Source: Gracilaria domingensis (taxonomy: Eukaryota > Rhodophyta > Florideophyceae > Gracilariales > Gracilariaceae). From it: a DNA stretch of 64,000 nt. The position numbers and the translations under genes were made by a program. Under the pieces are notes generated by a model. That model searched no databases and had not been told where the DNA came from. It saw only the letters and a program-made list of their open reading frames with translations. Every line of letters begins with the position of its first letter. Positions within the stretch are counted from its first letter, which is position 1. The stretch is taken from contig VCMS01000085.1 in NCBI GenBank assembly GCA_022539475.1, positions 62,001 through 126,000 of the forward strand, given 5' to 3'. Shown piece after piece: positions 18,526-57,282 of this stretch.

Positions 18526-20010
18526 TTACACTGTCCTCCCCTCCTTAGGGTGCGATTCGGCTTCCGCATTTCGCGCCAATACCGTAGACGGGGGGTGAAT
18601 CTCATGCAACTCAGTAGAGGGTGTAGGTGTAACCCGTGAGAGTCCGGGGTTATCCTTGAGCAACTCTGTTGTTTCAGGCAAGTCAGCGAGACCGCGCTGC
18701 GGGTGGGGCAAAACTGATGAACGGTTTGCTACAGTACCCGACTGTTCGGTAACTTGATGCGACGATGGACCGTTTCCGGTATTCGGCGCTGCGATAACTT
18801 CCTGTAAAGGGCTCGGTGCGCGATATACGCGATCTCGCGATACCCGCTCGTGCTGATTATCGATATCAAGCACGATGGTAGTCTCCTGTACGGATACAAC
18901 CCGATAGGGGCCACTGGCGATTGTAGAGAGCTTATGACGCTTCTCCTTCTCAGGATTGTAGTACTCCTTCCTGAGGAACACATAATCACCAACCCGCAGC
19001 TGCGGTAGCGGCCTACGGATTCGGCTATCGAAATTGCGCTTGTAGGCGAGTTGAGCTTTCTCCATAGAGCGCTTAGCAATAGGCACCATCCTGGTTAACC
19101 ATTTCTTCCACGCTTCGCGGTGTAGCCTCGGTGTCGAGTACTCGGCCATGGTTGGCTGTGCCTCAATGGCGAGAGGAGGTGGTCTCCTTGACAGGACTAA
19201 CTCGAAAGGGAACAACGACGTTACCCGATGTACCTGGGTGTTGTATGCGTATGTAATGGCATCTGTGTACAAATCCCAAGTCTTGAGGTGTTCCGCAACG
19301 TAGGATCTCAATGCACCAAGAATGATTCGATTAAATCTCTCTGCCTGACCATTAGTTTGGGGGTGATACGTTGTTGTAAACAGATTCCTAATGTCGAGGA
19401 TGCGACAAACGTCTTGGAAGAATTTCGACGTGAACTGGGAGCCGTTGTCGGAGAGCAAGTGTACCGGTGGTCCATAGACAAAGACCCAGTGGGTAACAAA
19501 CGCCTGAGCCACAGCGGCAGCAGTTATCCGCTTGAGCGGCACAGTCCGTACCAGCTTTGAGAAGCGATCGGTGATCACCAAGAGGTATTGATTCCCTTGC
19601 GAGGTTTTGATCAATTCGCCAAGAATGTCAATGGCGACAGACTCTAGCGGCGCCCTTGCAGGGAACAGCTTCAACTTCTTTGAATGCTTCCTCAGCTTGA
19701 TGTCGTTCTTGGCACATTCCTGACAGGATCGACGTACTGCATAGCAGTCGAATGCCATTGCAGGCCAGTAAAAATCCTTTCTCAATGTGAGATACAACTT
19801 TCTTCCTCCCGGATGGGCTCCCAACTTCACATAGTGAGAGAGGTGAAGAACTCGACTCTGTAAGGAGTGCGGCACCACTATTTGTGGGTTCGTTGACACC
19901 TTTCTTATTAGGTAGCCTTGATTATTCACCTGAAAGGGCAAGTGGTATCCACCGTTCAGACGGGCTCGTACCTGTGTACAGAAGGGATCCATCTGCTGTT
20001 CCCGTATCAT
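18526..20010 (-). CDS. Integrase of the Ty3/gypsy element
   Basis: This 494-codon frame has the three integrase parts. An N-terminal zinc-binding region carries His residues at about 56-67 and CQEC at 96-99. The catalytic core has D128 (VAIDILGE), D188 (LLSDNGSQF) and E224 (GQAERFN), with the 35-residue spacing between the second D and the E typical of retroviral-type integrases. A C-terminal region includes a GPYRVV segment typical of gypsy integrases. It inserts the cDNA into host chromatin. The frame overlaps the end of the RT frame by 4 bp in another phase. The text before its first Met (ITPEE) also reads as coding, so the separation from RT is probably a one-base lesion, not a true start. 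The frame itself is intact. Confidence 0.93.
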   Translation of the reverse strand: MIREQQMDPFCTQVRARLNGGYHLPFQVNNQGYLIRKVSTNPQIVVPHSLQSRVLHLSHYVKLGAHPGGRKLYLTLRKDFYWPAMAFDCYAVRRSCQECAKNDIKLRKHSKKLKLFPARAPLESVAIDILGELIKTSQGNQYLLVITDRFSKLVRTVPLKRITAAAVAQAFVTHWVFVYGPPVHLLSDNGSQFTSKFFQDVCRILDIRNLFTTTYHPQTNGQAERFNRIILGALRSYVAEHLKTWDLYTDAITYAYNTQVHRVTSLFPFELVLSRRPPPLAIEAQPTMAEYSTPRLHREAWKKWLTRMVPIAKRSMEKAQLAYKRNFDSRIRRPLPQLRVGDYVFLRKEYYNPEKEKRHKLSTIASGPYRVVSVQETTIVLDIDNQHERVSRDRVYRAPSPLQEVIAAPNTGNGPSSHQVTEQSGTVANRSSVLPHPQRGLADLPETTELLKDNPGLSRVTPTPSTELHEIHPPSTVLARNAEAESHPKEGRTV

Positions 20011-22121: not shown

Positions 22122-22144
22122 CGGTTTCCGAACAATCGGCAGTA

Positions 22145-22699
22145 TCGACCCGTCTCCATTTCCACTTGGCGTTTCCGCGGACGGATTGCTTCCACGAACC
22201 GATCGCAGAAGTCACAACCGAAAATAATCGGGGCAGCCAATGAGTCACAGACGACAAAATCAAGTTGTACCAAACAAGTTCCTAATCGTACAAGGAGTGT
22301 AATATAACCAGCCGTTCTCAACGGATTATTGTTCGCATCGGCGAGATTTAGAGCAGGGCCGAAACGGATTGTCTCCCGAAGAGTGGGCGGGATTAGCTTC
22401 TTGTTGATCAAGTTGGGGGCAGCTCCTGTATCCAGGACAGCTAATTGCCTAACCATGAATTGGGTGGACAGGCCAAGGTCGGCATACACCTTGTAGTTCC
22501 TCTTGGCCATTACCAGGATTCTATCCGGAGCACGGAAATTTCGGGACCGTACCCACGGGCGACGAAGAACACCACAGTGTTCCGAATCCACGTCAGTGGC
22601 AGCCATCTTCCTTGTTAGGATTCTAACAGCCGGGGAGTGAAGCGGAGGCGTCTTCAGCTTCGGCTCAGAAGACGCCCCTGCCGTTGGGGAGACTCCCAA
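22145..22699 (-). CDS. Aspartic protease region of pol
   Basis: The frame follows the gag stop in a different phase. It contains LAVLDTGAAPNLI, the retropepsin DTGA active site, followed by a flap-like region and IIFGCDFCDRF, which matches the ILG-D segment of retropepsins. It would process Gag and Pol. After about 22150 this phase loses homology and the RT phase takes over. No ATG is obvious at the start, so translation would need frameshift or readthrough from gag. Confidence 0.85.
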
Positions 22700-22701
22700 G
22701 T

Positions 22702-23499
22702 CTAGTTTTTCGGAGCAGGACCAGCCTGTCGGGGCCGATTCCCGTCCTGGGCACCAATTTGATGACCGTTCGCGGGTTCAACTCTTCCTTCCATATTCTG
22801 GGCTACCACAGGAGCGGCTTGATTCGCCATAGATCCACCACTCAAATGGACTGCCATTGCGTGCTTTGCGCCTTCGTAGAAAGTTCTCGGCACACGAGCT
22901 TGGTTCTCTGGGGAGAGAGATTCGAACTGAGCAATGATTTTCGACCTTTCCCGCGAAAGGAGCGTACACTGCGTTGAGATATGCCCATATTGGTAACATT
23001 CGTAACAGATAACTGGGGTCGAATAGTCCTGTGGACCTCTATCCACACGACTCTGCGGGGTGTTATCCCTCCATCTTGGGCGAGTAAACCTCGTGCCACG
23101 ACCTCCATAGAGAATTGGCGCTGCCGGAACCCGGTGTCCTTGCGCATAGAATGCGGGATCCGTTCCCGAAGACGGGACAGAGGTGGACGGGAGGTCAGAA
23201 GTACCCATAGAGTCGGGGTTGCTACCCACGAGGTTAACGTTATCGTGATCCAGATTGGAACCATTCCCATCAACATGGGCAGAAGAATAATCCGATTCTT
23301 CGTCGAAGAGTACCATACGAGGTTGGGTCCTAGAGGGACGCCTAGCTCGGAGCGTGTCACCTTCGGCTTGGGCATACTGTACTAATTCCAGGTAGATCAT
23401 CTTCCTATTATTCTCCCGATGTCGGGCGACAACAGCCCGTATTTTGGGGATCCAGCCCATCCACGAACAGGGAACATCTCTCTCCAGAGGAATGTACAT
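22702..23499 (-). CDS. Gag C-terminal part with nucleocapsid zinc knuckle
   Basis: This phase carries on from the capsid frame after one extra C in a CCCC run near 23445, where GLDP is followed by KIRAVVARHREN. It contains a CCHC knuckle, C-YE-C-YQYG-H-ISTQ-C, of the form Cx2Cx4Hx4C used to package retroelement RNA. It ends with a TAG at 22704-22702. The C-terminal region is Gln, Ala and Pro rich. Without the one-base shift the gag protein would run from about 25.0 kb to here. Confidence 0.85.
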   Translation of the reverse strand: MYIPLERDVPCSWMGWIPKIRAVVARHRENNRKMIYLELVQYAQAEGDTLRARRPSRTQPRMVLFDEESDYSSAHVDGNGSNLDHDNVNLVGSNPDSMGTSDLPSTSVPSSGTDPAFYAQGHRVPAAPILYGGRGTRFTRPRWRDNTPQSRVDRGPQDYSTPVICYECYQYGHISTQCTLLSRERSKIIAQFESLSPENQARVPRTFYEGAKHAMAVHLSGGSMANQAAPVVAQNMEGRVEPANGHQIGAQDGNRPRQAGPAPKN

Positions 23500-25023
23500 T
23501 ACCGCAGCGGTGGAAAGCCTTATTCAGGCGCGTTGAATAAGCTGTTTCCGTTTCTCCCGGACGTTGCTTCGTATCCCTTAAGGCGGAGGTCGCCTTTTGG
23601 ATGGCATGACCAGTAGCGTATGACCTTAGAAGGTAGTGTACCGCTTCGGGACAACATGTAACTCCCCCTTCCGAGGCTCTCGACGATCCGCGGACGGAAT
23701 TAAACTGATCTTCTGCCAAACCTTCGAGGTAATACGGGAGGGCTACATACGCCTGGCCCTCGCTCATTCCGAGTATATCGGCTTCTTGAACAAACCTTGC
23801 GAGGAAGTCCAGGACCAGAATAGGGTCCTCTCCTGCAAACTCTCTCTTATTCAGAGTAACGCCGAGTTTTTGGATGTAGTCCCGGACATTTCCGGTTCCC
23901 CTTGAGGTCCGAACTTCGGAGGTATCCTTAAGTCGATAATAGCGATATGAAAGCAGCTTTTGATACAGCGGATTAGATGGCTTCAACTCCTTCAAGCCAG
24001 GGTGCTTCTTCCCCTCCTTCCGGGTGCGGATTGCTCCCTGAGAGGTAAAAGTAGCCTTGGACCGTGACTTCGATGAACGGGGACGCCGGCGTCGGCTATC
24101 ATCCGAAGAGTCGGAGGACGACGATGAGGGCGAACTGTCCGAACTACTTCCGGAGTCGGAGTCAGACACATCCGAGTAATTACGGGAATCCTTCATGGAC
24201 CTACGACGGCTTCTCCTAGTGGATTGGCGAACTGAACTTTCGTCCTCCGAACGATTCCGCTCGGCGGCTTCTGCTTCCTCGTCCATCCGAATGGTGGCTT
24301 CGAGGGTGTCCAAGCGTGCGTGGATCCGTTCCACGGCGGCTTGAGTATCCTCTCGTACGAGGCGGTTTTCCTCCACATAAGCCCTTGGGGAGCCGAAGCA
24401 CTCCATGAGTGAATTCATCTCCTGCCTCAGGATACGCACCTCTCCTGAGACGTCCTTATCTAGGAGTTTATAAACCTGTCGACGGAGTTCCTCGACTGAC
24501 TCAATGAGGGATATGTGGGCAGCGTTAGCAATACTAAGGCGAGTGCCCAGATTACTGTACTCCTGAGAGTCAAGTCTTTCCGGCGGTGCGGCAGAGGGTG
24601 TCTCCACGACTGGAACTTCCTCTTCAGGTTGTGGTACTGCCTGCGGAGGGAGTTCTATAATCTCCTGTCCATCAACTGATGCATTCCGGTTCTCGGAGTT
24701 GTCGCGATTACTTCCCGATCCAGGGACTGATACTCTCGAGCGGGTACCACCTGACCGCGCAGGGGCATTCGAGGTAACCGATCTTCCTTTCGAGGATGTA
24801 GCTCGGCGTGGCCCACTGCAGCTTGCCAATCGAACTCGGGGGTTATTACGCGAACAAGTGCGAGACTTCCAAACTGCACCCAAAAGGGGTGAGAGATCTT
24901 GTGTCACGACCCGGTGAACGGGGCCGCGACCTTCAATCTCCCAAAAAGGGAATTCCAAGTGTCCAGATTCCAACCAGCAAACCCAGTTATGGTCCTCCAC
25001 CGTTCTAGGTCGGGAGACCAAAA
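23408..25023 (-). CDS. Gag, N-terminal and capsid part
   Basis: An open phase begins at the LTR border with no convincing ATG for several hundred bases, so the real start is uncertain. A low-complexity acidic/Ser region with an Arg-Ser cluster (RRSRRRSMKDS and a run of D and S) precedes a retrotransposon capsid domain: LDFLARFVQEADI and AYVALPYYLEGLAEDQF, then SYATGHAIQKATSALRD and ETETAYSTRLNKAFHRCG. It forms the virus-like particle. The phase breaks by one base at about 23445 and resumes as the zinc-knuckle frame. Confidence 0.85.
25006..25023 (-). promoter_or_regulatory. Candidate primer-binding site
   Basis: Three bases after the 5' LTR, reading on minus, the sequence TGGTCTCCCGACC begins with TGG, complementary to a tRNA CCA end. 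Position and start fit a primer-binding site. I cannot name the tRNA. Confidence 0.55.
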
Positions 25024-26015
25024 TGTAGAGCAAAACCCTGCGCTAGGCGCGATGGGGAATCTCCACTAGGATGTCCGAGTCCTACTCCCTGGATGGGATA
25101 GAAACAGCGGTAGAACTCTCTGTCCGTGCTCGAGTAGCGAGACAAGCCGGGTGTAAGACCGGAGACGGTGACTGGATATACCTACAGAGGTGAGATGCAA
25201 AGAACGGTGTAGATCCAGAGGTTAAGTGTGATCCGAACCTGGAGAGATGGAGAAAAAGGGGACCGTGTCAACGGGGGGGGGAAAGCTCACGGTGCAATCC
25301 ACCGGAGTGAAGCCACGGACCCTGCCAACCGGCGGGAACAGGTCCGATAGCGGAGCGACGCACAAAGGCGTGCCAAAAATATACCCAATACTGGGGCGGA
25401 AGCAATACCTGAACCAGGTGAACGGGTGACAACAACAGTCACGAAAGTAAACAACAAAATACAATGACAACAACAATGGGCCGATGCAACGGTAGATATA
25501 ACAAATGTTCCAGAGATGGCAAGATGCAAGCTTCCTAAGTGACCCTGAGGGGTAGTAGCGCCGAAACCAATCGTGGTTACTCTCCGAGGGGAGTGGTAAA
25601 CCTACGTAGACAGCTGTCTACTATAGCCCGATCCTCAACAGGACGCGACTCAGTTGTCCATTTACTTGGAGGCTCCATGGTGAGATCACCCGAGCATATA
25701 TACTATTACTACTACGGTATCTACAATGCACACCTCCCGAGTGTCATACACGTGGACGAACCACTGTCAGGGTGCAGGGTATTCCCCAACGGGCGTGGCA
25801 CAAATATCTAATTAGCCAGCTCCACCACGTGGCCTACTATCACACCCACTAGGCACTCCCCATGCAGGGTCCACCTATTAGGGGTCCAACCAAACCATCC
25901 CAACAATACCCAAAATTAAAGGGAGTTTTCATAACTTAGCCACGTCACCGGCCATCGGTACCATCTCATTATGAGAACCGTGATGCATCCGATAGCGGAA
26001 AGCTGTTGCTCCACA
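25024..26015 (-). repeat. 5' LTR of the retrotransposon
   Basis: 992 bp, TG...CA ends, about 98% identical by eye to the left LTR. In the element's direction it lies upstream of gag. Confidence 0.95.
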
Positions 26016-35494: not shown

Positions 35495-37690
35495 TCAAGA
35501 CAGATTAACGTTCATCTGTTCATTATGACAGTCTTCCGTGTCCCACCCGTCATCAACCTCGTCGTTTTCGTTACCTTCTCGACCTGATTTGTCTATGACC
35601 ATATCTGGTTTTGTGTCTTTGTACTTCGGTATGCCCATGCCACTGTTGAGAAGTCTAAGAGAGAATAACTTCATGCTCTTATGATACAGATTTGACTCCG
35701 GACGAACGCGTGACTGGACCATGTCTGATACTTCCCCTGCGACTCTCTCCGTGATAAACTGTGAAACATTACGTAAAGGACCACATTCACGCATCAATCT
35801 AGGAAAGTGAAGGATTGCGTGAGTTGTAGGAGTAAAGCAGGATAGGTGACCTAGAGAACCATTGAAACAATCGTCAAACAGCTCATGTAACTGCTGTATC
35901 ATGTTCTCCAACCTTGCGGCATCAGAATTTGCGAATGAAGTTGTGAAAATGACGTGAGTCACATATGATGTCATGGCCCAAAGTTTCGTCATCTTCGACG
36001 GCACACCACCTCCACTGAATACCACTGGGCCAAAAAATAGCGCTAGGCCCTTGAAATTCTCAGCCTTATACGGCCCCAAGTGTTGAAAGGATTGTGGCGC
36101 CCTACCCCACTCTGACGGAATACCAAACGTGCCATTTTCCAGTGATATGTTGATTTGGTCAAGAACTGCTCCAGAGATGGACACACTAGGGCTCTGACTG
36201 CTGTATGTTGGATGAGTACCGTTACACAATGCGCATAAGTGCTTCAACCAGCCAAGGAGCCACTGGTGCATTGCATCATATGGAGAACGTTTCACAACAT
36301 CCAAAGATAGCTTTGCAATCTAGGGCTTTCTCTTGATGCCGTTCTTCTTCATAATGTCTTCGATTGCAGAGTGATTGGTGCCACGACTGGCTTGGCGCAG
36401 CTGCATCCATACTTGGCTCATCTGATGCTGGGTTCTAACTCCCACGCACTCTCGTTCAATGAGTTCACTCTTGCCATTGACCATAATTCCTCTCTTTGCA
36501 AGCCTTCGTTCTCTCTCCTCAAATACTGGCGTCATGTACAGTTTCGAATTAATCCACTTACTCGGCTGGACGTCTTGTGACACTTTCGGCATCCATGAAG
36601 CGCATTGTGGCCCTTAAAGCCAAGCAGTTTGATTGCCGCCGTCCAGTCCGCGGTTACAAATACCACGAACGCATATAACGTCTGCTTTGCCCCATCCGCG
36701 CACTGCACGGGTATTCCTCTCTCTAACAATATCAAATCGTCAATAATGGGCTTTAGAAAGGCATCAAAAGCTTCACTGTCGTGAGAGCCAGGAACGATGG
36801 CCGTCAGTAGCGCATTAAATGCTTTGAATCGTTTTTCTGGTTGTAGATTGAGAATAACAAAAATTAATGGCCACACTGACCTGTTGCTTAAACCACTTCT
36901 GAAGACTTCAATTCCATCGGAAGAGAAGATAAGAAACAGAACCATGTCTGATTCAGTTCGCCAGAATCTCATCTCGTCTCCATAAGTGCCACGAAAGTAC
37001 GAACCCTCGTAATACTCAGAAAGAGTGTGCGGTGTTGGTTCCATACTGCTCTTCTGTGCAGCGCAAAACCCGTTCATGAGAGCATTGAAGCTTTCCGACT
37101 CTCCGCATAAAGCGATGAGCTGCTCAGAGACATAAGTGTACCAGAAACGAATGCCTTGCATGACGCTTTCTGAACATGAGCCACAAGGACACAAAACCGT
37201 TGACTTTCTCTCCGTGGTTCTAGGGACACAAGCATGGCCGAAATGACACATAAGTCCATATCGCTTTGTTGTTAAAGAACGTTTCCACAAATAACGCCTA
37301 AAGATTTCGTAACTGTACCTTGAGCGAACTACATCCGTTCGAAGCAGAGCGGTAATGTTTCTCTGTAATAACCCCCCTAACTCACAAACTTGCAGCACCT
37401 CCAAAATTCGCCTGGTCTCAATCTCCTTCGCATCCAGTACTTCTTGATTGGCTGCTTCGGAAGAACAAGTACTACTTTGCGAAGTCAAATCTGCGTACAG
37501 CTCATTTGTCTCTACCAAATCCTGGTACACTGCTAATTCGTCGCTGGCTACGTTCTGATGTACCACTGGTGATGCTGGCATATGGGCGTCATCTGCACTT
37601 GGGATTGTATCCATTTGAACTGAATGTTCTGTTTCTCTTCGTAGGGATCGATCTGATGCAAGCTGTCTTCGCAACGCAGTAAGGAACGGG
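35495..37690 (-). pseudogene. Plavaka/Tnp2 transposase
   Basis: About 730 codons in two main blocks. The upstream block contains the Tnp2/Plavaka core: FRGTYGDEMRFWRTESD, LFLIFSSDGIEVFRSG, SVWPLIFVILNLQPEKRFK, IVPGSHDSEAFDAFLKP, and KLLGFKGHNALHGCRKC with its Cys pair. The downstream block begins VVKRSPYDAMHQWLLGWLKHL and ends with TTHAILHFPRLMRECGPL and ITERVAGEVSD, the usual C-terminal region. Between them the phase changes once (about 36550), and a TAG at 36322-36320 stands in otherwise continuous text (KRKP, stop, IAKLS). The family catalyses cut-and-paste transposition. This copy is dead by the shift and stop. Confidence 0.88.
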
Positions 37691-37819
37691 ATGTATGACG
37701 TGATTCAAGACCGCGAGATGAATGCTCGGTTGTGTCTACTTGAAGATTTCCTGTCTGAAAGCGAGGAAGACTAGCAGATGGAGGACCGCGACGCCTTCGT
37801 TTCGTCCGAGGTTAATCAG

Positions 37820-40331: not shown

Positions 40332-40719
40332 GTAGGGTAGTTCTATTTCCGGGTGTTCCCAGATGGTTCCATTGAATCGTCTTAAAGCTAGCATCCGTAC
40401 CAGCGCACTCTGTAGCACATACCTTGTGTGGTGTGTTTATGACCTACAATGCTGTTCAACGCACACTCTTCAGGGCGTACCTGAGGATTCGAATGTTTCG
40501 ACTGGTATTGGGGAGTTTGAATCCTCGTATGTAACGTGAACTATTTGTTTTGCTGTTCGGAGTTGCTATGGAAACCGATACAGGATATGCGTCATGGGGC
40601 AGGGTTCAATGTGAGCATTAACGCGAAACCCGATATTGAACTGACGAATCCTCCTAAACCTTCCGGTCATGCTGAACCTTTTTTGACCAACTCTGCCCCA
40701 CCCCCCTCGTCGAAAGTAT

Positions 40720-42609
40720 ATGGACCTTGTGAGCTCCGATAGCGACGACTTCGAGAAGCCGGTGATTCGTGCGAAACATGAATCTCGGGTTGCCGGGTAC
40801 AACATCCAAAAGACTGGTATTGAGCCGCCCATGAAGGAGATATCCAGTCTCCTTCGACTGAATATGGACAAGGTGTGGAAGGGGATTAGAAAGTCGCACT
40901 TTGTAGCGTACAACTGTGACATGAAGGACCTGATACACACAGATGAAACGTTTGTGAATCAGAGTGAGATTTTATGGGGTGAGGCACAGCTTTTCCTAAC
41001 AGACCCTCCGTTTAACACTCGAAAGAAGAGGAGCAAACGGAATGGTGCTCACGATGTCTCCGGTGAGGATAACATGATCAGTACCGCAGACTTAATAAGT
41101 TCGGCGCTTCGGTCAGGTGGGCACTTCATTATATTCTGTGCCATGGCACAGTTTCATGTTTGGCAAAGGATACTCTCGGAAACGGCCAGTACGAGAGATG
41201 ACATTGGAAGCGAAGGTAAGCCAGAACTCAGGCCTTCGTTTAAAGTGGATGGGAATCCACTGGTGTTCATCCGGGATCGAAGTAATCTTGGCGGGAATCT
41301 ACGCAAGTTTAGGATACAGCCCGTAACGGAGTACGCCGTTCATGGGCTGAAGCGTGGATTGCGACCATCGGAGAAAGCCAGTCTTACTCCATTTGAGGAG
41401 AACAGTTTTATTCCTTCTACTTTCCGGGCAAACAGGAATGTAATTGACCGGGTGCCGAAACCGAGAGCGGGGGAGTGGTTGACATGGAAGATAAATGAGC
41501 CAGGTAGTTCAGTACCAAGTGCACACTACATAAGACCGGAGCAGAAGTCCAGGGAGTTGATGAAAGAGTTGATATGTCGGTTCACAAGACCGGGTGATCT
41601 TGTCATGGACATGTTCGGAGGAACGTTTTCTACGGGTATGGCGTGCCTATCGCTGACAAGGCATAGGAAGTTCTTGGGCTGCGAGAACAATAGGCCATGT
41701 TTCACTCATGCGAAGCACCATATAAAGACTCTCATGGCCGAAGTTCTTCGCCGGGGCAAGAATGATATCGTGGTTGAACAGGAGGAGGTGGATGCTGCTT
41801 CAACGACTTATGAACGGGTTCCCCATCGGGACCGAGGTCGGGTTGAATGGGAAGCTCCATTTGGATACCCCCAGTACCAAGTAATGCCTGCACATATTAC
41901 TCAGTTCCTAGGAAGATACTGGAAGGACTGGGAGTTTGTCGACAAGTGTGGACAGCATACTGTAGATCTTTGGGACGAGAAGTACCGAGGAGCTCTGAAT
42001 TTAATGGATATACATATGCTGTTGACTGTTGAATCCAATCGGTATTGCTTACATGTAGCATCTTCTAAGATTTGACATCCCCGTGCTCGTATGGGGGTGT
42101 TCACGGAACATAAGATATTGGCTGGGGAAACTATCTGTCATTTTTGTGGAACTTTGGTATACATGGTTCTGACGAACTGGAAGGAAAGACAGTTAAAGTA
42201 CGGAACTGGCTGTCTCGGAGCAACTCTTGTGCGGTACAAGTTGTTTTCTCTGATGGTCACTGTGACTGGTTCGGAGTTTCTGCACCTGAGGAACAGACCA
42301 GGACACGCTCAGGATAGAAAGGAGAGCGAAGTCTAAATTGTCCCGCCGCCTTTTTGTATCGGGGGCTACGTTAACGACGCCGGATATCATACCGAGGATC
42401 CCGATTTATCGCAGCCACGGTCGAACTGGACTCGAAGTCCCAATGTGCAGATGGTGAAAGCAAAGTCCGTGATACAGTTTAAGTCCGACCTTTCTAACTA
42501 TGCTCTACTTCGTTGTAGAGCAGTAAGAGATATTGAGAGGGACGAAAAGTTGTATTTCAAATACGGAGAGCAGTACGCCTGGGACTGGGCCCCGACATTG
42601 GAGCAATAG
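40720..42609 (+). pseudogene. Beta-class DNA methyltransferase fused to a SET domain, two in-frame stops
   Basis: A single phase of 630 codons from ATG 40720 to TAG 42609. Residues 88-98 give the target-base motif AQLFLTDPPFN, followed by SGGHFIIFCAMAQF. IRPEQKSRELMKELI at about 271 and DLVMDMFGGTFSTGMACL at 293-310 form the AdoMet pocket. Catalytic motif before AdoMet motif is the beta-class order of amino-methyltransferases. DPPF favours N6-adenine over N4-cytosine, but not decisively. A TGA at 42073 follows codon 451, and a SET domain continues in phase: RARMGVFTEHKILAGETICH and FCGTLVY, then a TAA at 42334, then GGYVNDA and RAVRDIERDEKLYFKYG. SET domains methylate histone lysines. Text at 40536-40719 in another phase may be an older N terminus. 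An AATAAA follows at 42666. The fusion would write DNA and histone marks together. This copy is interrupted. Confidence 0.82.
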
Positions 42610-42665
42610 GTGAGTGCAGTACCGAATAGAAAGTAACTATGCTTGTGAATGTAGCAGCTGCCTGC

Positions 42666-42671
42666 AATAAA
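42666..42671 (+). terminator. Candidate polyadenylation signal
   Basis: AATAAA lies 57 bp after the TAG that closes the methyltransferase-SET phase and before the next gene's ATG at 42849. Confidence 0.4.
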
Positions 42672-42848
42672 CGTTGTACATGTACACTAGAGCTCTTCAT
42701 TTATTTGTAACGGCGATATTTGCGACCAATTGCGCACCTCGAATTCCAAAAAAGCAGGAACTACGGAGTCTCCCGGAATATCTGAACCATGCACTCTCCC
42801 CCTGGATCCCCAAATATTTCACTTCTTTACCCCATTTATCTCCACAAC

Positions 42849-45242
42849 ATGAGTATAACGCCGAGAAAGCGAAATAGTAAGCAGCAGAATAAAAGTAGAC
42901 AGAAGAAGAGATGAGCATCGGGTGATACAAATCAGGCTACAGGCACCGCACTTCCTAAACGGAAGTCGTCTACCACGAAGGAGACAGTCAGCGGGCGTCC
43001 TTTTACAGTACTCTCTCGCCCATCTCGCAGCAGAGTGTCATCCGGGATTGCGTCAAGAATTCGTGGATCAGCAAACGATGTCGTGCCGTCAACTGCCGAT
43101 AATGTAAATCGTGCATCTGTGTCTGCTCCCCAAGAAGAAAAGGCAACTCGGCCCAGCAGGTCAGGACAGGAGGGCATCACAACTGGAACTAAAGAGGTTC
43201 GTATGACACCAAAACCTTCATGTCCCCCGCCGATATCGAAGACCGGAGCTACTGTGGCGCGGGTTACGCCGCCCAGTGGATCTGGACAACAAGGGACAAT
43301 GACGAGAAGTCGTGAGAACCCTAATATATTAAGATCGTCACGTCCCTCCCTGTCTTCTAGAACTGGGGCCGCTATGAATCGTATTATGCTTCGCAATGGG
43401 TGCGGACAAGGGAGAAAGACAATAAGAAATCGAGAGACGACTGATAGGCGAGTTACTCCTCCACCTTTCCCTCTTTCCAGAACAGGAGCCGTTGCAGCTC
43501 GTACGAGGCCCAATTCATCTGATGTACGATGCCATGGAGGAGGACAGACACGGGAGTTGCAGCTGAGAGCTGTGTCGAGGGAGGACACAGAAAGCCTGCA
43601 GCCTCTCGCGGCTAAGGGTGTGGCACATGAGGATAGTTCCGATAACGAAATAGCACCGAATCCTGCGACATTACCGGGGCCTTTCGCCGAAAAGGTTCGG
43701 GAAATACCGGAAATGATCCACACTGGTGTGCATTCAACCTCTATGAACAGACGTGATCTTTTAAATGAACTGAATTGCTTGAAAGAAAATTTTGAGACGT
43801 CACGAGAGGACTTGATGGCTCGGGATATACTAGTGAAAGTAGCCCAAGAGCACAGTACGGCTTTGAAAAAGAGGCTTTTGGAGAAGGATCTAGTCATTGA
43901 AGGGATAAGGGTGGCACTGAAACAGGAGGGGGATAGGAGTACACGTGCTGGTGAACCTGGGCAGACAGGTCGAAAGAAGCATAAATTGAGGTGTGCGACG
44001 AGTTTCGAGGGGTTGCTCGAGCAGTGTATCACAACATACTGACGTGGGCAAGGAGAGAAACAAGTGAGCTATGGCCCGAAGGTGAGTCGCTCAGCGGAAA
44101 TTGGGGTAACCGTGCCGACAAGGTGGAAGACGCAACTAAGAGTGGGAAAGGGCTTATTGAGCCGCAGGAAGGTGGTTCATACATGGTTCCTGGAAACCCC
44201 GTGGAGCTCTTGGGCAGTTTTGGCATGTTCACACCGTCGGTAGAGCGGGGACAGATGCTTTGCGAAGAAAGTGGTTGAAAACGAGTTGAAGTAGTTGAGC
44301 TGGGAAGGTATTAGAAAACCGTCTCTTACCGACAGGTGTATACTGGAACTTTGTTCAGATATGTGCCTTAGGCAGAGAATGCGGCAGACTATGAGCGACA
44401 TCGTGGGCGTTTGGAAGAGATATACGAGGGATAAACTATTTCCGCTCCTGGGCTACGATCTGATTTGGAAAAGAACGAAGCTGGTAGAAGAGAATGCTGA
44501 CGAACTCAAAATGCAGTTGAAGGAAGCGCAGGAGAACATATTGCGTCTTGAAGAAAATGGTGTACCGAACACTTCATGGTAGAGAAAAGCCCCATTTGTT
44601 CGTCTAAAGTACTCCAATGCGGACAATGTGGAGGATATGCAGACAGAAGATCAAGACTTGTTCTTCCGAAACCGTGTTCGGCTACAAGTACTGAAGGAGT
44701 TTATTGGCTTTGATGTGGAAGACAAAGATACGGGCACCTTTGTAGATGGCATAATACTGTTGCTCGCACGTTTGGACGCTTGGGTGTTGACGCTTGTGAG
44801 CCTTCTAAGTACGGATGTATCAAGCGGTGGCCAGAGACAGAAACTTTTTACAAAGAAGTTTGCCCAAATGCTACCTCTGTGTTTAAAGAATGTTCTGTGG
44901 GATGTTAGGCAACACGTCTTGAGGACCAATTCCAGCGAGTTTCATATTTATGGAACGACAACGGAAGATTGGCATAAGATTCTTTGTAATGACATGAGAG
45001 AGGCTACATTTGGATATCGAATGCCATCGAACGGAAGACTTTACCTCACTGTGAAAGAAAAACCTTTTATTGACAGTGTGAGCCAAAGATTGGGGTCTAT
45101 TAGCGATTGTTTTGTTGGTGAATGCGAGGAAGGAAATATTGAGTTCAAGGAAATGGACATAAACGATTTCAGAAGTAGCACAGGATCACAAGAAAAGGCA
45201 CCACAAGGTGAACATGTAGAGAATGGAGCCCTTAATGTTTGA
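42849..45242 (+). pseudogene. Repeat-bearing coiled-coil protein of the candidate element
   Basis: Starts at ATG 42849 with a very basic N terminus (MSITPRKRNSKQQNKSRQKKR) and hits a TGA at 42912, then continues in the same phase. A Ser/Thr/Arg-rich region contains three repeats with a period of exactly 40 residues (SRSGQEG, SGSGQQG and NGCGQGR, each ending TGA..xR). A helical, charged region follows (NELNCLKENFETSRED to LKKRLLEKDLVIEGI). Near 43990 the phase changes and returns near 44270. A heptad-like segment (KLVEENADELKMQLKEAQEN) and a roughly 200-codon C-terminal part (44628-45242) follow, with TAG stops at 44292 and 44580 inside otherwise continuous text. No known family. The protein could be a DNA-binding or scaffold partner of the neighbouring enzyme, which is inference. 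It ends 84 bp from the stop of the opposing transposase. Confidence 0.6.
43164..43523 (+). repeat. Three 120-bp coding repeats
   Basis: The protein motif GQ-x-G...RTGA-x-x-x-R recurs with GQ at residues 44, 84 and 124 counted from the codon at 43035, an exact 40-residue step. The DNA units have diverged but keep the period, pointing to old duplication and selection on length. Confidence 0.8.
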
Positions 45243-45325
45243 GGCTGTACAAAATCAACGTGCTCAGTTGGTCCTTCATCTGAATCATGATAGAATCGAT
45301 TGATGTAGAATCGGTGTTGAAACGA

Positions 45326-48300
45326 TTAAAGTGGAGGACAAAAAGGTGGAGCAGGGTAGTTTGAGCGAACAACATGGACAGTTACCTGTAGTGCAGAAGC
45401 CAGAACCATCCCGTACCAAGGAGTTACCTCTACGATACTCTCCGCTTTGGAATGACGAGGGAACGGAAGAGTGTGGTTCTTTTCATCGTTTGTATGCCAG
45501 CGTAAAGATATGCATTTCAATTTGTGGTCGATGTTTGTTGCGGGGGGTAAAACCTCAAAATGCCGCACGAATGCCACCACTGCTGCGGTAAGTGCAGAAT
45601 CAAGGAGAAATATTCGAATCAGAGCGACTACCTGGGCTACCCAAGTCTCTGAATCTTCTCCGCTTACCAATACAGTGGAATACTTTGGCTTTCTACTGGA
45701 ACCAAATGCTGGAGAAGCGAAGACTCGTTGGATGATGGGGTACTTGGGTCGTCCCAGCTTAAGTGCCTTAGAAGACGAATCGAAGTGTTCAAGAGTCGGA
45801 ACGAAACCGCCTTTCACGAGGTCCGAATTCACCAGAGTTATCCTTGTCTTTTCTGGGAAGTATGTAATAGAGTGTTCATCCAGTTTTTCTTTCACGAGCC
45901 TGAGGAAAGGAGGAAGGGCCTGTTCACCAATTTGGTCAAGAATCGACATTGTGTCAGTCCTTGAGAACATCTCTCTAACAGCAGTCCATGATTTTGAACT
46001 CGACATACTTGAAACACGATGTTGGAGAGCTCGCATAGTGAAAGAACGCCCTCTCATTGCAAATCGGGGGAGCTGTGTGGAAGTTCCTGGTAAACCTGGA
46101 TTACGCTGGTGAGGAGTACTGCCATTCCATTGCTTTCTAACATGTTCGTGCTCAATGGAGCAAATAGTCTCCTCCACAGCCGTCGCTGTTCTTCTGGACG
46201 TCTTTTTTTAGTGTCTCTTAAATAGCAGGTGTGCATGTTCGTATATGCCTGCGTCGTAGTACTTGATACTTCCCAGACGGCAAATATCGTCCACGAGATG
46301 ATCGAGAAGATGTAACTTCATAGTTCCCAGTCTGGAGGGATGAAGATCCGCCAGAGTCATTGTTGCGAAACGCTTGAAGGCTTCAATCTCCGAACTAAGA
46401 CACAGGAGAGAGCTCTCAGTCCAATACGGGTCACGATTGTATCTGAATAAAGTCGAAAGCAAGTTCGAGTACAGAGAAGATGGTTGTGATTGGAGCAACG
46501 TCCTGTTTTCCACAGTATATGTCAAAGAATGCTCCTATGAAGGGGAAGACCATGTCAAGAGCTTTGTAGTTTTTGGCCTCCAGCATTCCATGGAGACCGT
46601 CTTTCGTGAAGATATCATTCAAAGATTTGCCTTTCTCCTGCGTGGAGAAATCGATATGTAAACCTTTGGCAAGAGAATCGCGTTCTATGGCAGCTAGAAT
46701 TGCGTTTGCATGGTTGAGGAGTTGGGTGTGTATCGTTTGAAGTGAACGCGATGCAGATGTTTTTATTGTAGTGCACAGGGTGTCTGACTGTAGTCCCTCG
46801 ATTGTAGCCGTTTTTATTAGCTTCGAGATGCCGAGATGCAAGTTGTGTAACGGTTCGAATGAGAACAAACTGTATGGAGACAATCCCGGGATCATTCCAA
46901 CGCTTACGGGAGTTTCGAGAAATGAAGGAATAAGAGATATGGAATTTGAACGCATCAGAGTATCCGCCTGAGATCTTCTCTCCCTCGCACGACGTGGACG
47001 TGTTTCCGCCTCGTCTTTTTGTGCATGTTGTAAGATAGCTGTGTATGTCTTTCGGATTCTTTTCGTGTGATTTTGAGAACGTCCGTTGAATGAGCTGGAA
47101 ACATGACTGCATAAAGATGGGCGAGGGGCTTTGCATCTATGACACAGGCTTTCCGTCTTGGTCCCATGAAGAATAGACAGAATGTCCTTAGCCTCAGGAA
47201 TATCCGCACAATGACTTGCAAGCAGAGGATGGCACACTCGAATTAGTTTGTCTTCGCCGATGAACTGAAAACCTTTCTGCGTGAGATTTAGAATGGGCTC
47301 CAGGACTTGACGAAGAGATTCTTGAAGGATTTGCATCCTGGACTCGCGTAGAAACTTGCTAGAAACGAATGGAATTGCGTTTACTTCAGATGCGGAGCCT
47401 TCAATTAGTGTGGTAGGGAAGTATGCCCTACTGTGAGGTCATCACGGATGCACTTACGACGTAGCTCGTTGGAAAAGTTGAGAAATATGAGGTGAAGAGG
47501 ATAGGCAGTAACCGATGTTTGCTTTCGAGTTGTTGAAGACTTATCGGTGTATACCTGCAGAAGACCTACAAAAGAGTCACTGTAACTTATTTCTTGGGAT
47601 TAACACATTATTTTACTATCCAAAGAGCCCATGACAATTTCCTTAAGTTTTGAGATGGCGTCTCTTGCGAGAGAGCCGGACATGGGGTGAGATATTTTCG
47701 TGGAGTGGGTTTGAGGTATAGGGTGGAAGATTGTGTTTTCGTTGTTAGCCAACTGGAGCTGTTTCATAAATGTGTGAACGGGGTCTCTCGTGTAGAGGGT
47801 GGCGCTGAACTTACATCCTTCTGGCAAGACAGTTCTTCGATTCAAACCGTCTTTTGAGGCGTATCATTCGAAAATGGCGTTCTTCAGTTCTGTACAGCGC
47901 TTAGAACTTGTTATGGTCTCGTTGAATCGCTTTTGCCAGAATCACGGGTTCTGAAGTAACCCAATTAGCTCGTCCACCTCCAGATGACCGAGATTGGAAG
48001 CTACTGAAGCCAGAATAACCGTGAGATAATCCATATGCAAATCACCGAGGGCCTCCTCAGAAGGCACTAGGCGGGAACTGCTTCCGTGTTCTCGCTCTAA
48101 TGACGCGGGACCTGGGGAAGAAGAAACACAATGCGACCGGAGTGGGGTCAACGATGTCCTCGGACACCGGAAGCTCGGGAAAGCGACAAGGGGGAGTGAC
48201 CATTTCGGAAGATGCGGGCGCGGGCGCAGAAAGCTTGAGACGCTTTCTTCTTCGTATGAGCCGCCTATTGACGTCTTCCAGCGCAGCTTTCAGGCCAAAT

Positions 48301-48392
48301 GGGCAATGGTTAACATGCTGTCGAAGAGATAACACTCCTCGGCGAGTAACGAACGGGCACCCACGCTTCTTATGTGTACAGTAGTAGACCAT
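45326..48392 (-). pseudogene. Plavaka-like transposase of the candidate element
   Basis: Starts at an ATG on minus (48392-48390) with a possible zinc finger (YCTHKKRGCPF and LRQHVNHC). Then come segments in the family order: YSDSFVGLLQVYTDKSSTTR followed by YPLHLIFLNFSNELRRK; VCHPLLASHCADIPEAKDIL and SLCHRCKAPRPSL; PYSLFSFEPLHNLHLGISKL; and the C-terminal KLHLLDHLVDDICRLGS, YYDAGIYEHAHLLFKR and TAVEETI. This is distinct from the transposase at 35.5-37.7 kb. At least three phase changes (one near 46480) and stops (TAA at 46210-46208) inactivate it. It converges with the plus-strand accessory genes. Confidence 0.78.
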
Positions 48393-49146
48393 GGGAAGAA
48401 GAAATGAACGAGAAACGAAGACAAAGACTGCAAGGGAAGGTCGTCCGAAGGGAGAAGGAGGTCGAGCGACAGTCAAGATCGATGTCAGGCTGAGAACGGA
48501 GAATATATTTTGAGTTAAAATCACGTGCTTTCGTTCAAAAAGGAACGTAGGTACACGTCGACCTCAACACAAGGGTGTACTTCTCGTATTATCTACCACT
48601 GGTTATAAACCTGTGGTTTTGCAACGTTGTACGCTGTACACCTGTCCAATCTCGCCCACAAAAATGAATCTCTTCCCTTCGCCGCCGCCACCGCCCGTCC
48701 GACGTCCGACCTTCTGTTACCGTCGTGATCCGTGCCATCCACATTCTCGAGTTCTACTCCGCTCCGTCGTACTTTTTTCCGCCCTCGCACTCGCTACGAA
48801 GTAGCGTGCTGAGAAAGAGAATGAAGTACGCTTCATCTCTGCTTAATGGATTCCATTAAACGGACATGAAGCGTACCTCATTCTCTTTCTCCGCCCTCGT
48901 CGGACGCCTCCATAAAGCGGATATCATCCGTATCTCACGGATGTATTCCGTGCAATCTTTTTGTACGTTCTTCCATATCCTTCTATGTATCTTTGCTCTA
49001 AACTAACCCATCCTCACCACGTTTTTTCGCGCTATGCGACATGTTAACGGCAGAAATTAAGCTTTGGGTTACCGGGTTCCTGTTTTCACCCTCCAACTCG
49101 TTCCATTTGTTCAACTACGTTCTGTTCACGATATTTTCATCTTGTT
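48393..49146. other. Upstream region of the Plavaka-like transposase
   Basis: Presumed promoter side of the minus transposase gene. It holds a large hairpin at 48810-48891 and short frames without motifs. A plus frame at 48613-48804 is not convincing. Confidence 0.35.
48810..48891. repeat. Long hairpin with 26-bp arms
   Basis: TGAGAAAGAGAATGAAGTAC at left faces GTACCTCATTCTCTTTCTC at right, one mismatch, with a 30-bp loop that itself holds the palindrome TAATGGATTCCATTA. CCGCCCTCG occurs as a direct repeat on both sides (about 48779 and 48891), and a smaller hairpin CGCTAC-GAA-GTAGCG sits just before. This looks like a terminus or a small foldback element. Confidence 0.85.
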
Positions 49147-49794
49147 CTACGTCTCGCTACTCATATTGACTTGGTTGAAGGTAACCACTCTTTGAAGTGC
49201 GTCCCTTGTATTTCTTCCGACATCCACGACGACTGTAAGTACGCGACAAGTTTCATTTCGTTTCTCAAAATCGATCTCTGACTGTTCGTGTAACCTATCA
49301 CGCTGTATTGCCGATCTCGGTTCACTTTGTTGCACCATAGGCACTTCTAGCTTCTCGCGTCTTGCGCTACTTTAGGTTTGCTGGCGATCTTGGTTGACTT
49401 GGTTGCGCCATTGAATCTTCTCTCTTCTCGCATCTTGCGCTACATTTGATGTATTGGCGATATTGGTTGATATTGGTTGACTGCCTTGGGCGATAGGTTC
49501 ATCATTGGCGATCTTCTTTGACTAGGTTGCGCCATAGGATGATCTCTCTCTTCTAGCACCTTGCGTTACTTTTGGTGCATTGGCGATATGGTTTGACTTG
49601 GTTGCCTCATAGGCTCGCCTCCCTTCTCGCTCCTTACGTTGATCTTCCTGTTTTGGCGAGCTTGGTTGAGTGGCTTGCGGGATATTCTGGTACTTGGTTG
49701 CGACATAGGCTGCTCTCTCGCTTATCGGATCTTGCGGTATTTTTGCTGCATGGGCAATCTTGATGTCCCTGCTTGTGAGTTCTCGCTTCGTCAT
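49147..49794 (-). pseudogene. Degenerate repeat-protein frame
   Basis: On minus, a roughly 28-30 residue unit recurs four to five times: IANAPKVTQGARRERSSYGA, then ATKSN/ATQSKK, with variants KIPQDPISERAAYVATK, NIPQATQPSSPKQEDQRKER and NTSNVAQDARREK. The DNA shows the same as imperfect 80-90 bp tandem units between 49340 and 49770. A TAG at 49524-49522 and a one-base shift near 49400 break it, and a non-repeat C-terminal part follows (IDFEKRNETCRVLTVVVDV). No known family. It reads in the same direction as the transposase and lies upstream of it, so it may be another gene of the same element. Confidence 0.5.
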
Positions 49795-50654
49795 CTTTCG
49801 CAGTTTACGAAGAACGGATTGTTGCTAATTTAACCCATCCCTTTCCTTATTCTTCTTCCTTATGCGATTTACTAGGTGTCTCGACTTTTCTAGCGCAACG
49901 TTTCTGTTTTGCTTTATCAATGGTACGTTCCATCGTATTTGAAATGTATCGAATGGAGCATTGGCTAACTTATGGATACTTTGTGCTTGCATATACAGGT
50001 AAATAACTTCTGATGCGCACGTAGCTCACGAGTTATAGGTGAATTGAACGTGCAACGCGTATGTATCTGGGCATGGTTCCCTACTTGACGAACCGAGACG
50101 ATGAGGCGCTTCGCGCCTCATCCTCTTGGTTCCTCAAGTAAGGATATGTGTTCTAGCGATACCGAACTTTGGTGCAGGTGCAGGTTGCGGCAGCTGCCGC
50201 AGATTGCGCCCACTCCCGCTCCATCATGGGGAAATGGTACATGTAATATAGCGAAATAGTGATTAGCAAAAGCGGTTGATAGGGGGATGGATACGAAAAA
50301 AACGGTATGATTTCACAATGGACATCATCTGTACTAGCACCACGATTCCATGCGTTGCAGGGTATCATTCCGCAGAAGGTATCGTGTAATGTGCACCTTA
50401 ATGGAAACTGAACCTAGACTTCGCGAAATACCTTTCAGGTAGCCCTCGACTAAAGGAGTAGCACGAGTGGAAAACCCACCAGTATTTACAGCACAGCGAT
50501 TCGGGACGACCCCAAGCATTTATCTCCAAATTTTGAAATAATTGATCTCGATATTTTTTCAAAAAATTTAGTGGACGACCCTCGCCAAAAACTAGCATCT
50601 GCAAGAGACAGAAGCTATTACGTCGATAGCGTGCTCAGCTTTACCTTTCGCCCT
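49795..50654. other. Gap with a terminal-looking hairpin
   Basis: No gene seen. The hairpin at 50080-50143 is the main structure and could mark the right edge of the candidate element. Confidence 0.35.
50080..50143. repeat. 64-bp foldback
   Basis: CCTACTTGACGAACCGAGAC and GATGAGGCGC pair with the following GCGCCTCATC and CTCTTGGTTCCTCAAGTAAGG across a 3-base loop, with about four mismatches. Confidence 0.85.
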
Positions 50655-54394: not shown

Positions 54395-56565
54395 TTGTCC
54401 CAAATAAAGATGACAATATCATACAAGCTTAAACTAGTTAGAATGTTAATGTCCCATGTCGGTCGACGACCTATATTAAAACAAGATGAAGAAAAGCTGA
54501 TCGTCGCGCTGGTAATGAGAGCAGCAGAACGAGGATTGGCTGTCTACAATGAAACTCTCAAGCTCGTGATGGCTTCTGTGGCTGGTGATGGCATCGCGGG
54601 GTGGAAGCAGGTAGTTCTATCTAAAGATGCAATAAGATCTTTCGAAGCCGACACTGCGATGATCTTTGCGTCCAGAAATTTCATCCGAAACACAATGCCA
54701 AGCTGAAGGGCGAAGACGTCGAGTATGTTCATACGTTCTTGGACGTAGTAACAAAACTTGGAACGGAACATCCCCGGTTGCTGCAGAACCCCGACAGAGC
54801 CTGAAATATGGACGAGACGGCTGTTCAATCTACGTGGATAAAGCAAAGAAAGCATACGGTACAAAGAAGTCAAAGCATTGCGGTTGCCGTTTTCCCCTCG
54901 TGATCATTTGGATGGTGTGTGTACTGCCTGTGCCTGGTGAAGGGGCTCAAGTGCTTACTATATGTTTGATTCGAACCGTAATCCAATATATGCCGTATCT
55001 TTGTGGCATCTAAACCGTGGATATGGTTGGTTTATGCATAATGTTCGCACACAACAGGCACAGGGCCAACCTAAAAAAATTGCGTGTTTTTATTTCGTTA
55101 CATTTGTCATCATCAGACATGTCTTAGACCGTCATATCACACATTTTCGACATATATATGACTTATATATGACATTGTGCCAAACCAGACATATCGTAGT
55201 CACATGGATCTCTTTGTCAGAGATAAAGTGTACATATACTGCTCAAATGTTCACCTGGGTTCAGAAAAAGACGAGCGGTATAAACAAGCATAATACGGCA
55301 GTCATGGTTTACTCTGCTTCGTGTTTGAAAGCACCTCTATTCTCTATCGTGGCTGGTAAAACGCCGATGTCCGGATGGATAGAGCACCTCTCGAAAGTGT
55401 AATATAACAGTCCCGCAGAGTTTGAGAAGTATTGCAACCCAGATTAGATGCGAAAAGGAGCCGCTATCAAAGTCATTGGAAAGGGCTCCATGTATCTTGA
55501 AACCCTTTACGCTTTCATAAAACACGTAACCAAACTTGTTCGACAGAACGTGCCGAAGTCAGAATTGTGTTTGCTGAAAATGAACGGACATTAGTCAAGA
55601 GAGTGAATTAAATGGATTGATGAGTGTGAGAAGTAGTACTGTTTACCGGTTATCAAGCCAGCTGACACGTCACATTTTCCACAGCCATGTGACAGAAGAA
55701 TTAGCAAATCATTCAAGCAGTCTATGCGGTTCTTGAGGGATCAGTTCTTCAAGGTACTCATTCCAGATACAGGCACCCCGCAATTTAATCTTTTATGTGC
55801 GGCATATGCCCATGAGTGCATAGCAATCTTGCAGATTAGGGTATCCTTTGCCGTCACCGGAGTTCTTCCGTTCAAGCGGTATTTCGCTGACCAATTCAAA
55901 ACGATTGGGAGCCCAGAAACCGCAGTAGATGTGAAAGAGAGGAGAACGATAGCATCGAGGGTGAATACTGTAAGACTACGGCATACAGGTGAGAGTGTTG
56001 TCGCGAAAGTAACCAAAATTTTAGAAGCGACAAGCAGTCCTACCTTGAAAGTGAAGCACCTTAGAAACCTTATGTCTAACGCTTAGACAGCATACAACAT
56101 AATTGTGATGGCCATTCATCCTGTATAGACAGAGAAAGAGTTGGAATCAGAGAATGGAAATAAGAAGCAAGAAACGTCCGTTAGTCAGATTGTGGGGCTC
56201 CTGTTGTGCACAAAACTGTAGCGAAAATGATTCATGAAAGGAAGGGAAAAGCCCTACAGAAGAAATAGGTGGAAATCGGTGCAAAAGAGGCGGTAGTATT
56301 GAAGCAACTTCGCATAGTAGAGAAAAAGAAACACCGAGAGAAGGCATCGAAGGAAGAGAATGAGCTGCGTCTGAAGGAGCGACGAAGTGAGGAGCGAAAT
56401 GAGTTTGCTTCCCGAATTGCAGAGCAGTATGTGCGCAAACAGTTTCACATGTCGAAGAAGAAACTTCGTCAATTGTTGGGCAATAGAAGAAGAGATTATG
56501 AATTTGATATTAAGGCTTCATGTGTCTTGATAATCCAAGAGCTCTGTGCAGCAGTTGGCTTTTAG
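54395..56565 (+). pseudogene. pogo/Tigger-type (DDE_1) transposase, decayed
   Basis: The N-terminal part has the CENP-B-like helix-turn-helix context (HVGRRPILKQDEEKLIV, then AERGLAVYNETLKLVM). A stop at 54802 precedes NMDETAVQ, the NMDE motif bearing the first catalytic Asp. Later come fragments of the core (FDSNRNPIYAVSLWH), ADTSHFPQPCDRRISKSFKQ at about 55660-55720, and AYAHECIAILQIRVSFAVTG with VLPFKRYF. The C-terminal end is a Lys/Glu-rich helix (KKKHREKASKEENELRLKER). Many phase changes and stops. pogo elements insert at TA. It overlaps the end of the opposing piggyBac remnant. Confidence 0.75.
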
Positions 56566-56629
56566 TAGATTCCTGTATTGACCACGATGGACACTGTCCG
56601 GATTCAATGAACGTTGTTGCCTTTCGTGA

Positions 56630-57223
56630 TGCCTGAGGCTGTTCATAAGTTCGGGAAGGGCATGTTGACACTGATACAGATAGAACTAATGGCGATGATA
56701 TATTTGCACTCAGTCTTGAGAGCCAGAAACAAACCGTTTCTGAGATATTTAAAATATTGTTGAAGATTGTCCAAATTTTGACTTTTGTGAATGGTACCCA
56801 AAGAACAGTCATCAGTTCATTCTCAATTTCATTTTGCTTCGAAACCATTTTAATGTACTCCCCACGAATAGGCATAGTCAGTTCTGACAGTTTGTTCATC
56901 CGAAACCGTCTTGTAGCGTACTTTATAACAGCAATAAATCGCATTCTTTTTCTTAAAAGAGCTTCTGCAGCTTTGACTGAAGCGAAAAAGGAATCGGCGC
57001 ATACCAGGCGATTGATTCCAAACCAACCTTGAACCAGTCGTGAGAGGACAGATGTGCCATTTCGAAACTCATCAGAATATTTCATTGACTCCGTGGAAGT
57101 ACTGCCCATTGTAATTTCGATTTTGCGAAGTATACCGCTCTGATCACAACAAACAGTTATCAGTTCACAGCCGATTTCCGGACTCCGGTCCAGAGCAATG
57201 TAGTTCGGAAGTTCATTGTTCAA
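56630..57223 (-). pseudogene. piggyBac-type (DDE_Tnp_1_7) transposase fragment
   Basis: Minus frame with NYIALDRSPEIGCELITVCC, SRLVQGWFGINRLVCADSFF (the VCADSFFASV motif holds a catalytic Asp), KRMRFIAVIKYATRRF, and MPIRGEY. These match the middle and later part of piggyBac-like transposases. N- and C-terminal regions are missing. After about 56640 the text no longer matches the family. Confidence 0.78.
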
Positions 57224-57282
57224 ATAATGTTAACCAAGCCCATATCCGCGTGACATACTTTCGTCCGCACACAACGAGCTCG

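Follow-up and report, generated by a model that had tools for sequence, protein, structure and literature searches.

A predicted DNA amino-methyltransferase fused to a SET domain, carried by a Plavaka-type transposon of the red alga Gracilaria domingensis

The window considered here, the whole stretch of 64,000 nucleotides analysed in contig VCMS01000085.1 of Gracilaria domingensis, contains the remains of a gene in which a DNA amino-methyltransferase (MTase) domain is followed by a SET domain (Table 1). A first-pass annotation, made from the letters alone, had read a DPPF motif, a later DMFGG motif and the two halves of a SET domain in a single phase, and this is borne out. All of them lie in frame 1 of 40720-42609, where TGA at 42073 closes the MTase part, TAA at 42334 separates the SET halves and TAG at 42607 ends the second. 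DPPF is upstream of DMFGGTF, as the beta order has it. A profile search places the MTase in PF01555 (N6_N4_Mtase) at 1.3e-14, with 55.1 bits against a Pfam curated cut-off of 26.7, while each SET half, scored singly against PF00856, falls below cut-off.

Table 1. Coordinates of the gene remnant and of the element that carries it (positions in the window).
Feature	Position	Strand	Evidence
Window copy of the Plavaka-type element, left-truncated, in MTase-SET sense	40556..50612	+	identity to copies on contigs C171 and C257; common right end
Remains of the MTase-SET gene (residues 372-1055, numbered on the 1,055-codon frame)	40557..42609	+	tblastn
Open frame with beta-order DNA amino-methyltransferase domain	40720..42072	+	DPPF 41002-41013, then DMFGGTF 41608-41628
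SET domain, first half	42091..42237	+	PF00856 profile 2-37, 0.039 alone; complete in L014, 1.5e-07
SET domain, second half	42424..42567	+	PF00856 profile 66-105, 0.1 alone
Remnant of 832-aa companion ORF	42765..45239	+	75% identity to C171 ORF
Plavaka transposase remnant, five pieces with frame changes	45523..48515	-	86-89% identity to 999-aa C171 frame
Right-end motif, 21 bases	50590..50610	+	554 genome occurrences at <=1 mismatch; reversed control 0

This copy of the gene is a pseudogene. Its N-terminal third is missing, homology to the uninterrupted frame known from other copies beginning only at residue 372 (tblastn identity 69% over residues 372-426 and 85% over residues 417-1055). With a frameshift near 40.7 kb, two in-frame stops (42073 and 42334) and a broken transposase besides, it must be considered dead.

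Elsewhere the frame survives. In the genome that holds the window (77.9 Mb in 680 contigs), 94 copies of MTase-SET were scored among 682 candidates, and nine of the 94 keep the 1,055-codon frame without stops; the uninterrupted copies that the first-pass annotation had proposed to look for in the host are thus present. Two open frames were scanned with Pfam for both domains, and both carry them above the Pfam cut-offs: L014, 1,055 codons in one open frame (MTase 7.9e-15; SET 1.5e-07, with 32.2 bits against a curated cut-off of 22.4 for PF00856), and L005, 989 open codons past a single stop at residue 66 (MTase 1e-14; SET 1.8e-07). Eight database homologues of 843-1,058 residues, 32-46% identical, belong with them. 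Six have both Pfam labels, and the alignment runs through SET in seven, the eighth (P0008) ending before it, so that the two domains are not always encoded by separate genes. Nor does the C-terminal part fall outside the SET family: profile searches give SET, and a fold search on 42076-42606 lists SET/PR domains, the fold model being of low confidence. The fusion of MTase and SET in one reading frame is real. A chance reading is ruled out by the profile scores, the repeated copies and the homologues; separate neighbouring genes, by the two scanned open frames that read through both domains; assembly error or bacterial contamination, by the recurrence of the gene on many contigs beside a Plavaka transposase.

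Judged from its alignment, MTase-SET forms a single family of proteins, about 1,000 residues long, because the N-terminal part is likewise common to the homologues. Homologue searches seeded from the first 500 residues, the divergent N-terminal part, gave none at 1e-3, the other search having given the eight. The MTase domain is assigned a methyltransferase fold, and the order of DPPF before the AdoMet motif is kept in the 9 rows of the alignment (A1); we take DPPF to be catalytic motif IV and DxFxGT to be AdoMet motif I. As to the target base, the sequence leans to N6 of adenine over N4 of cytosine, given its DPPF motif and given that its closest relatives of solved structure are adenine enzymes. 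On the SET side, N978 is invariant in the alignment, and EELxxxY is present in all eight SET-bearing rows (GEEL in seven, NEEL in P0001). These are presumably the asparagine of the SET NH motif and the C-terminal SET tyrosine motif. The His of the NH motif is replaced, by Asp in seven of the eight rows and by Gly in P0004. At the EELxxxY site the window copy reads DEKLYFKY.

Further domains and wider relatives were also looked for. The D12 (Dam-type) profile reaches only 0.045-0.062, below cut-off, in two homologues, and Pfam reports no chromodomain family in L014, P0001, P0003, P0004 or P0008. A plasmid search with MTase-SET gave no match. Scans of contigs and phage records, made with short patterns or by close similarity, showed no prokaryotic or phage fusion: genome contigs scanned with the alignment yielded 47 pattern matches, three of them confirmed and all partial methyltransferase; viral contigs yielded 61, two of them confirmed, again partial methyltransferase; and of 66 phage records with a match none reaches 80% coverage of the query, the eight listed covering the methyltransferase part alone.

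The first-pass annotation had placed the gene beside transposases. A transposase is indeed near, and it is not merely adjacent: both are parts of the same repeated element, a large Plavaka DNA transposon of which the genome has hundreds of copies. Over alignments of 8.6-9.6 kb, the window element is 91.6-91.7% identical in nucleotide sequence to its counterparts on contigs C171 and C257. The Plavaka transposase profile (PF18759) is matched at 5.8e-10 in the window and at 1.6e-18 in C171, where the 711-aa part that was scanned matches Plavaka only and is not assigned to the Harbinger transposases. The order in C171 is a 1,087-aa ORF (-), MTase-SET (+), the 832-aa companion ORF (+), for which the C171 copy shows no Pfam family, and the 999-aa Plavaka transposase (-).

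Homology between the window and C171 continues beyond the transposase, to a right end common to other copies; the end motif itself was not seen in C171. This right end closes in ACA, then GA. GA follows 10 of 10 printed right ends, and GACG nine of them (window 50611): the terminus may be longer, or a target preferred. No left end was found in the copies read, and in the C34 copy the sequence in common extends over at least about 21.7 kb. Position 464 of C378, where 38 of 40 matches start (one starts at 467), was rejected as a left end because four other copies read share sequence further left; it is a truncation of C378. Position 110527 of C42 was likewise rejected, being the right end of an inverted neighbour.

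At no more than three mismatches the whole genome has 201 MTase, 228 SET and 341 transposase tags, with all reversed controls at 0. Linkage was read from those exact tags that are listed for contigs C1-C115 (54 MTase, 59 SET and 100 transposase). A SET tag lies 1.0-1.2 kb downstream of 42 of the 54 listed MTase tags, and a transposase tag 2.0-5.2 kb downstream of 37 of them, with one more at 0.9 kb (chance about 1.2%). Such a count of copies next to Plavaka-type transposases had been suggested at the outset, and the linkage upholds the view that a mobile element carries one protein in which a beta-order amino-methyltransferase is joined to a SET domain. An exact MTase tag is upstream of only 37 of the 100 listed transposase tags; therefore some elements are without MTase, or have diverged. 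Among the 20 fetched copies, chosen mostly for open frames, transposase homology appears in 18, in one of them weakly (L021, a weak protein match alone, at 39-42%), and none was seen within the fetched pieces of L013 and L019. C171 also holds a second Plavaka element, whose transposase is 47% identical and which includes an ORF related to the companion ORF; no MTase-SET is seen in the 8.8 kb read, which reach only about 1.9 kb upstream of that related ORF.

Other frames and repeats surround the gene. The 1,087-aa ORF, opposite to MTase-SET, is found at L014:1-2014 and at L029:8753-10000 (minus strand). The pieces of it that were searched against Pfam, NCBIfam and PDB match nothing at better than 0.2, and we take some of its strings, by eye, to be ParB-like and dioxygenase-like; if the latter reading is true, the element could hold a writer and an eraser together. 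The left part of the repeat holds, ahead of MTase-SET, HAD-like hydrolase ORFs (L036:2883-3950, 1.3e-12; L031:3788-4744, 2.3e-05), with an ORF beside them that has no Pfam match and is presumably dehydrogenase-like; these are possibly metabolic genes that a very large element carries along. A ribulose-phosphate 3-epimerase ORF (L035:5437-5940, 2.5e-40), close to the left portion of the copy on C69, may be either host flank or cargo. The window itself holds a second DNA transposon remnant at 35495-37704 (-), with Transposase_21 (tnp2 type) at 36532-37704 (7.8e-15) and DUF4218 below cut-off at 35495-36319; a retrotransposon at 18526-25042 (-), which we take to be of the Ty3/gypsy type, with a reverse transcriptase (6.3e-37) and RNase H at 20007-22211; and a PiggyBac-like transposase fragment at 56510-57229 (DDE_Tnp_1_7, 4.1e-09).

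Selection was read from 24 gene copies, 20 of them fetched and four from the genome scan; four further loci, representing the same places, were left out. Among substitutions confined to a single copy, those in SET (N:S 83:28, 1.11 of expectation), the N-terminal part (1.04) and the middle (1.31) are near neutral; those in MTase are not (107:59, 0.62). Substitutions present in at least two copies include no stops, and in each of the four parts of the gene they change the amino acid less often than expected: SET 6:10 (0.22), MTase 23:24 (0.33), middle 0.37 and N-terminal part 0.49. Shared descent makes the counts less independent than is assumed by the binomial test on shared substitutions (p = 0.003 for SET, 0.00015 for MTase) and by the Fisher test of shared against single ones (0.006 and 0.063). 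Because of this depletion, both domains appear to have been kept in the lineages that spread. Pooled over the copies, pairwise omega comes to 0.34 (MTase) and 0.49 (SET); between the window copy and L014 it is 0.49 and 0.95. Decay of the RIP type or at CpG was considered; there is no CpG excess, C-to-T at CpG not being raised (0.92 single, 1.19 shared). In the 24 copies C-to-T is commonest at C before C (0.286 per site versus 0.145-0.195 in other contexts).

What of the host? Searched by exon, its genome gives 0 matches to the C5-cytosine methylase family, which is detected in 10 of 14 control genomes. An absence of C5 methylation should not be generalized to red algae, because Gracilariopsis chorda, another red seaweed, is reported with about 8% methylation in the accessible text of PMC8566409. 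The accessible part of PMC6338049 reports methylase-bearing retrotransposons in Rhodophyta. Both reports count against the reading of the element proposed below. A search for MT-A70 found nothing, yet the control genomes are silent too, and it carries no information on presence. Ten of 12 phycobilisome-family matches are on a single contig, C680, a clustering which we infer to be as in a red algal plastid.

How might such a protein serve its element? Tentatively, and with rather less than even confidence, we suggest that the fused protein of this Plavaka-type element, a predicted MTase of bacterial type with a predicted histone-methylating SET, marks the DNA and nucleosomes of the element itself, so that copies escape host silencing. 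An SV40-like PKKKRKV string in the N-terminal part would bring the protein to the nucleus, where a largely helical N-terminal region of about 450 residues might steer it to the element or to its transposase. The MTase would then make N6-methyladenine rather than N4-methylcytosine, and the predicted SET activity would methylate a histone lysine on the same nucleosomes. The least certain step is the last: the combined mark would be permissive, that is anti-silencing, rather than repressive. It is the likeliest sense of the mark because selection keeps the gene in an element that is spreading, which suggests a gain for the element; selection on a gene within an element fits a benefit to the transposon better than self-silencing. 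In other eukaryotes, according to the available text of PMC12695648, 6mA is associated with permissive chromatin, though via another enzyme class.

The main rivals to self-marking are a role in transposition itself and self-restraint. The MTase might mark ends or new insertions while SET loosens or tags target chromatin, timing or directing the transposase, with which the gene travels in a fixed layout. Dam methylation likewise sets the timing of some bacterial transposons. In the accessible passages of PMC3627910 and PMC5890265, methylases borne by transposons are proposed to act during transposition. A histone writer is not needed for such a task, however, and we find this role unlikely, while deserving serious attention. 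Self-restraint, in line with the self-silencing device put forward in the first-pass annotation, would have the fused writer silence the element's own copies, through a DNA mark and a repressive histone mark, and so limit copy number and damage to the host, in a manner that resembles the reinforcement loops of plants or bdelloids. Indeed, bdelloid N4CMT puts 4mC on transposons with silent chromatin marks, in animals without C5 methylases (PMC8885841, as far as its available text goes), and the present host has no match to the C5 methylase family. Yet selection within a transposon favours spread unless the cost to the host is high, and hundreds of copies do not suggest tight restraint; we hold this account to be rather unlikely.

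The absence of a C5 methylase family match in the host would also suit control of competitors, the protein marking other mobile or foreign DNA for silencing and the element being tolerated as genome-defence cargo; defence roles are speculated for transposon-borne methylases in the accessible part of PMC6338049. Targets outside the element are without support, however, which leaves this account improbable. Finally, accessory ORFs are common in large elements, and the full 1,055-codon frame is free of stops in only nine of the 94 scored copies, but constraint on shared substitutions in both domains, together with homologues at 32-46% identity of which seven in eight keep both domains, makes it very improbable that MTase-SET is a captured passenger, functionless in the element and multiplied by hitchhiking.

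If self-marking by the element is the right reading, MTase-SET would provide a natural two-writer module for chromatin research, and a concrete 6mA/4mC prediction for a red alga. One may go further, to a view that we think possible and on the whole doubtful: a second epigenetic code of transposon origin, where one enzyme writes adenine (or N4-cytosine) and histone marks, conferring a self-propagating, heritable chromatin identity on hundreds of copies in a genome without detectable C5-cytosine methylation machinery. It would be the first single polypeptide to write on both DNA and histones.

Several known systems approach this arrangement. In SETMAR a SET domain is likewise tied to a transposon protein, there the mariner transposase; we take it to be a SET domain joined to a transposase, with an intact copy in the primate lineage and no DNA methyltransferase. 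The bdelloid rotifer N4CMT resembles MTase-SET as a bacterial amino-methyltransferase fused to a chromatin domain, in that case a chromodomain. It is, however, a host gene with SPPY and a histone-reading chromodomain, whereas MTase-SET is transposon-borne, with DPPF and a SET domain predicted to write on histones (PMC8885841, accessible text). HarbingerS and MuDR of Phytophthora are also DNA transposons with a SET methyltransferase gene, but they have other transposase families than Plavaka, and a fused DNA methyltransferase is not mentioned in the introduction of PMC12730594, which describes them. Those fungal transposons, Plavaka among them, that have a TET/JBP dioxygenase again carry a DNA-modification enzyme, proposed to act against silencing; they oxidize methylcytosine, and the same partial text mentions no SET fusion, while MTase-SET is predicted to write amino-methyl marks (PMC12730594). 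DNA methylases in retrotransposons have already been described (PMC5890265, PMC6338049, both in their accessible parts). DIRS elements with Dam-like methylases and the retrotransposon DNMTs of dinoflagellates and charophytes are mobile elements with their own DNA methyltransferase, those of dinoflagellates mostly under purifying selection; they are retrotransposons with Dam-type or C5 enzymes, and no SET fusion is mentioned in the available text (PMC5890265). DIRS joins a reverse transcriptase to a D12 methylase, whereas here the methylase is of the PF01555 family and its partner a Plavaka transposase. Among the top matches listed in searches of open-licence full-text literature, no fusion of an amino-methyltransferase with SET appears. 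The first-pass annotation did not recognize such a device from described transposons, and this holds for the fusion; transposons with a DNA methylase, a SET or a TET gene are known. Within the parts of that literature available, each known mark-editing transposon acts either on DNA or on histones, and none does both through one protein. A transposon protein able to write both, in a genome without a detected C5 methylase, would make the coupling of DNA and histone marks directly testable. Transposon-borne epigenetic enzymes being already known, the new part is the fusion itself.
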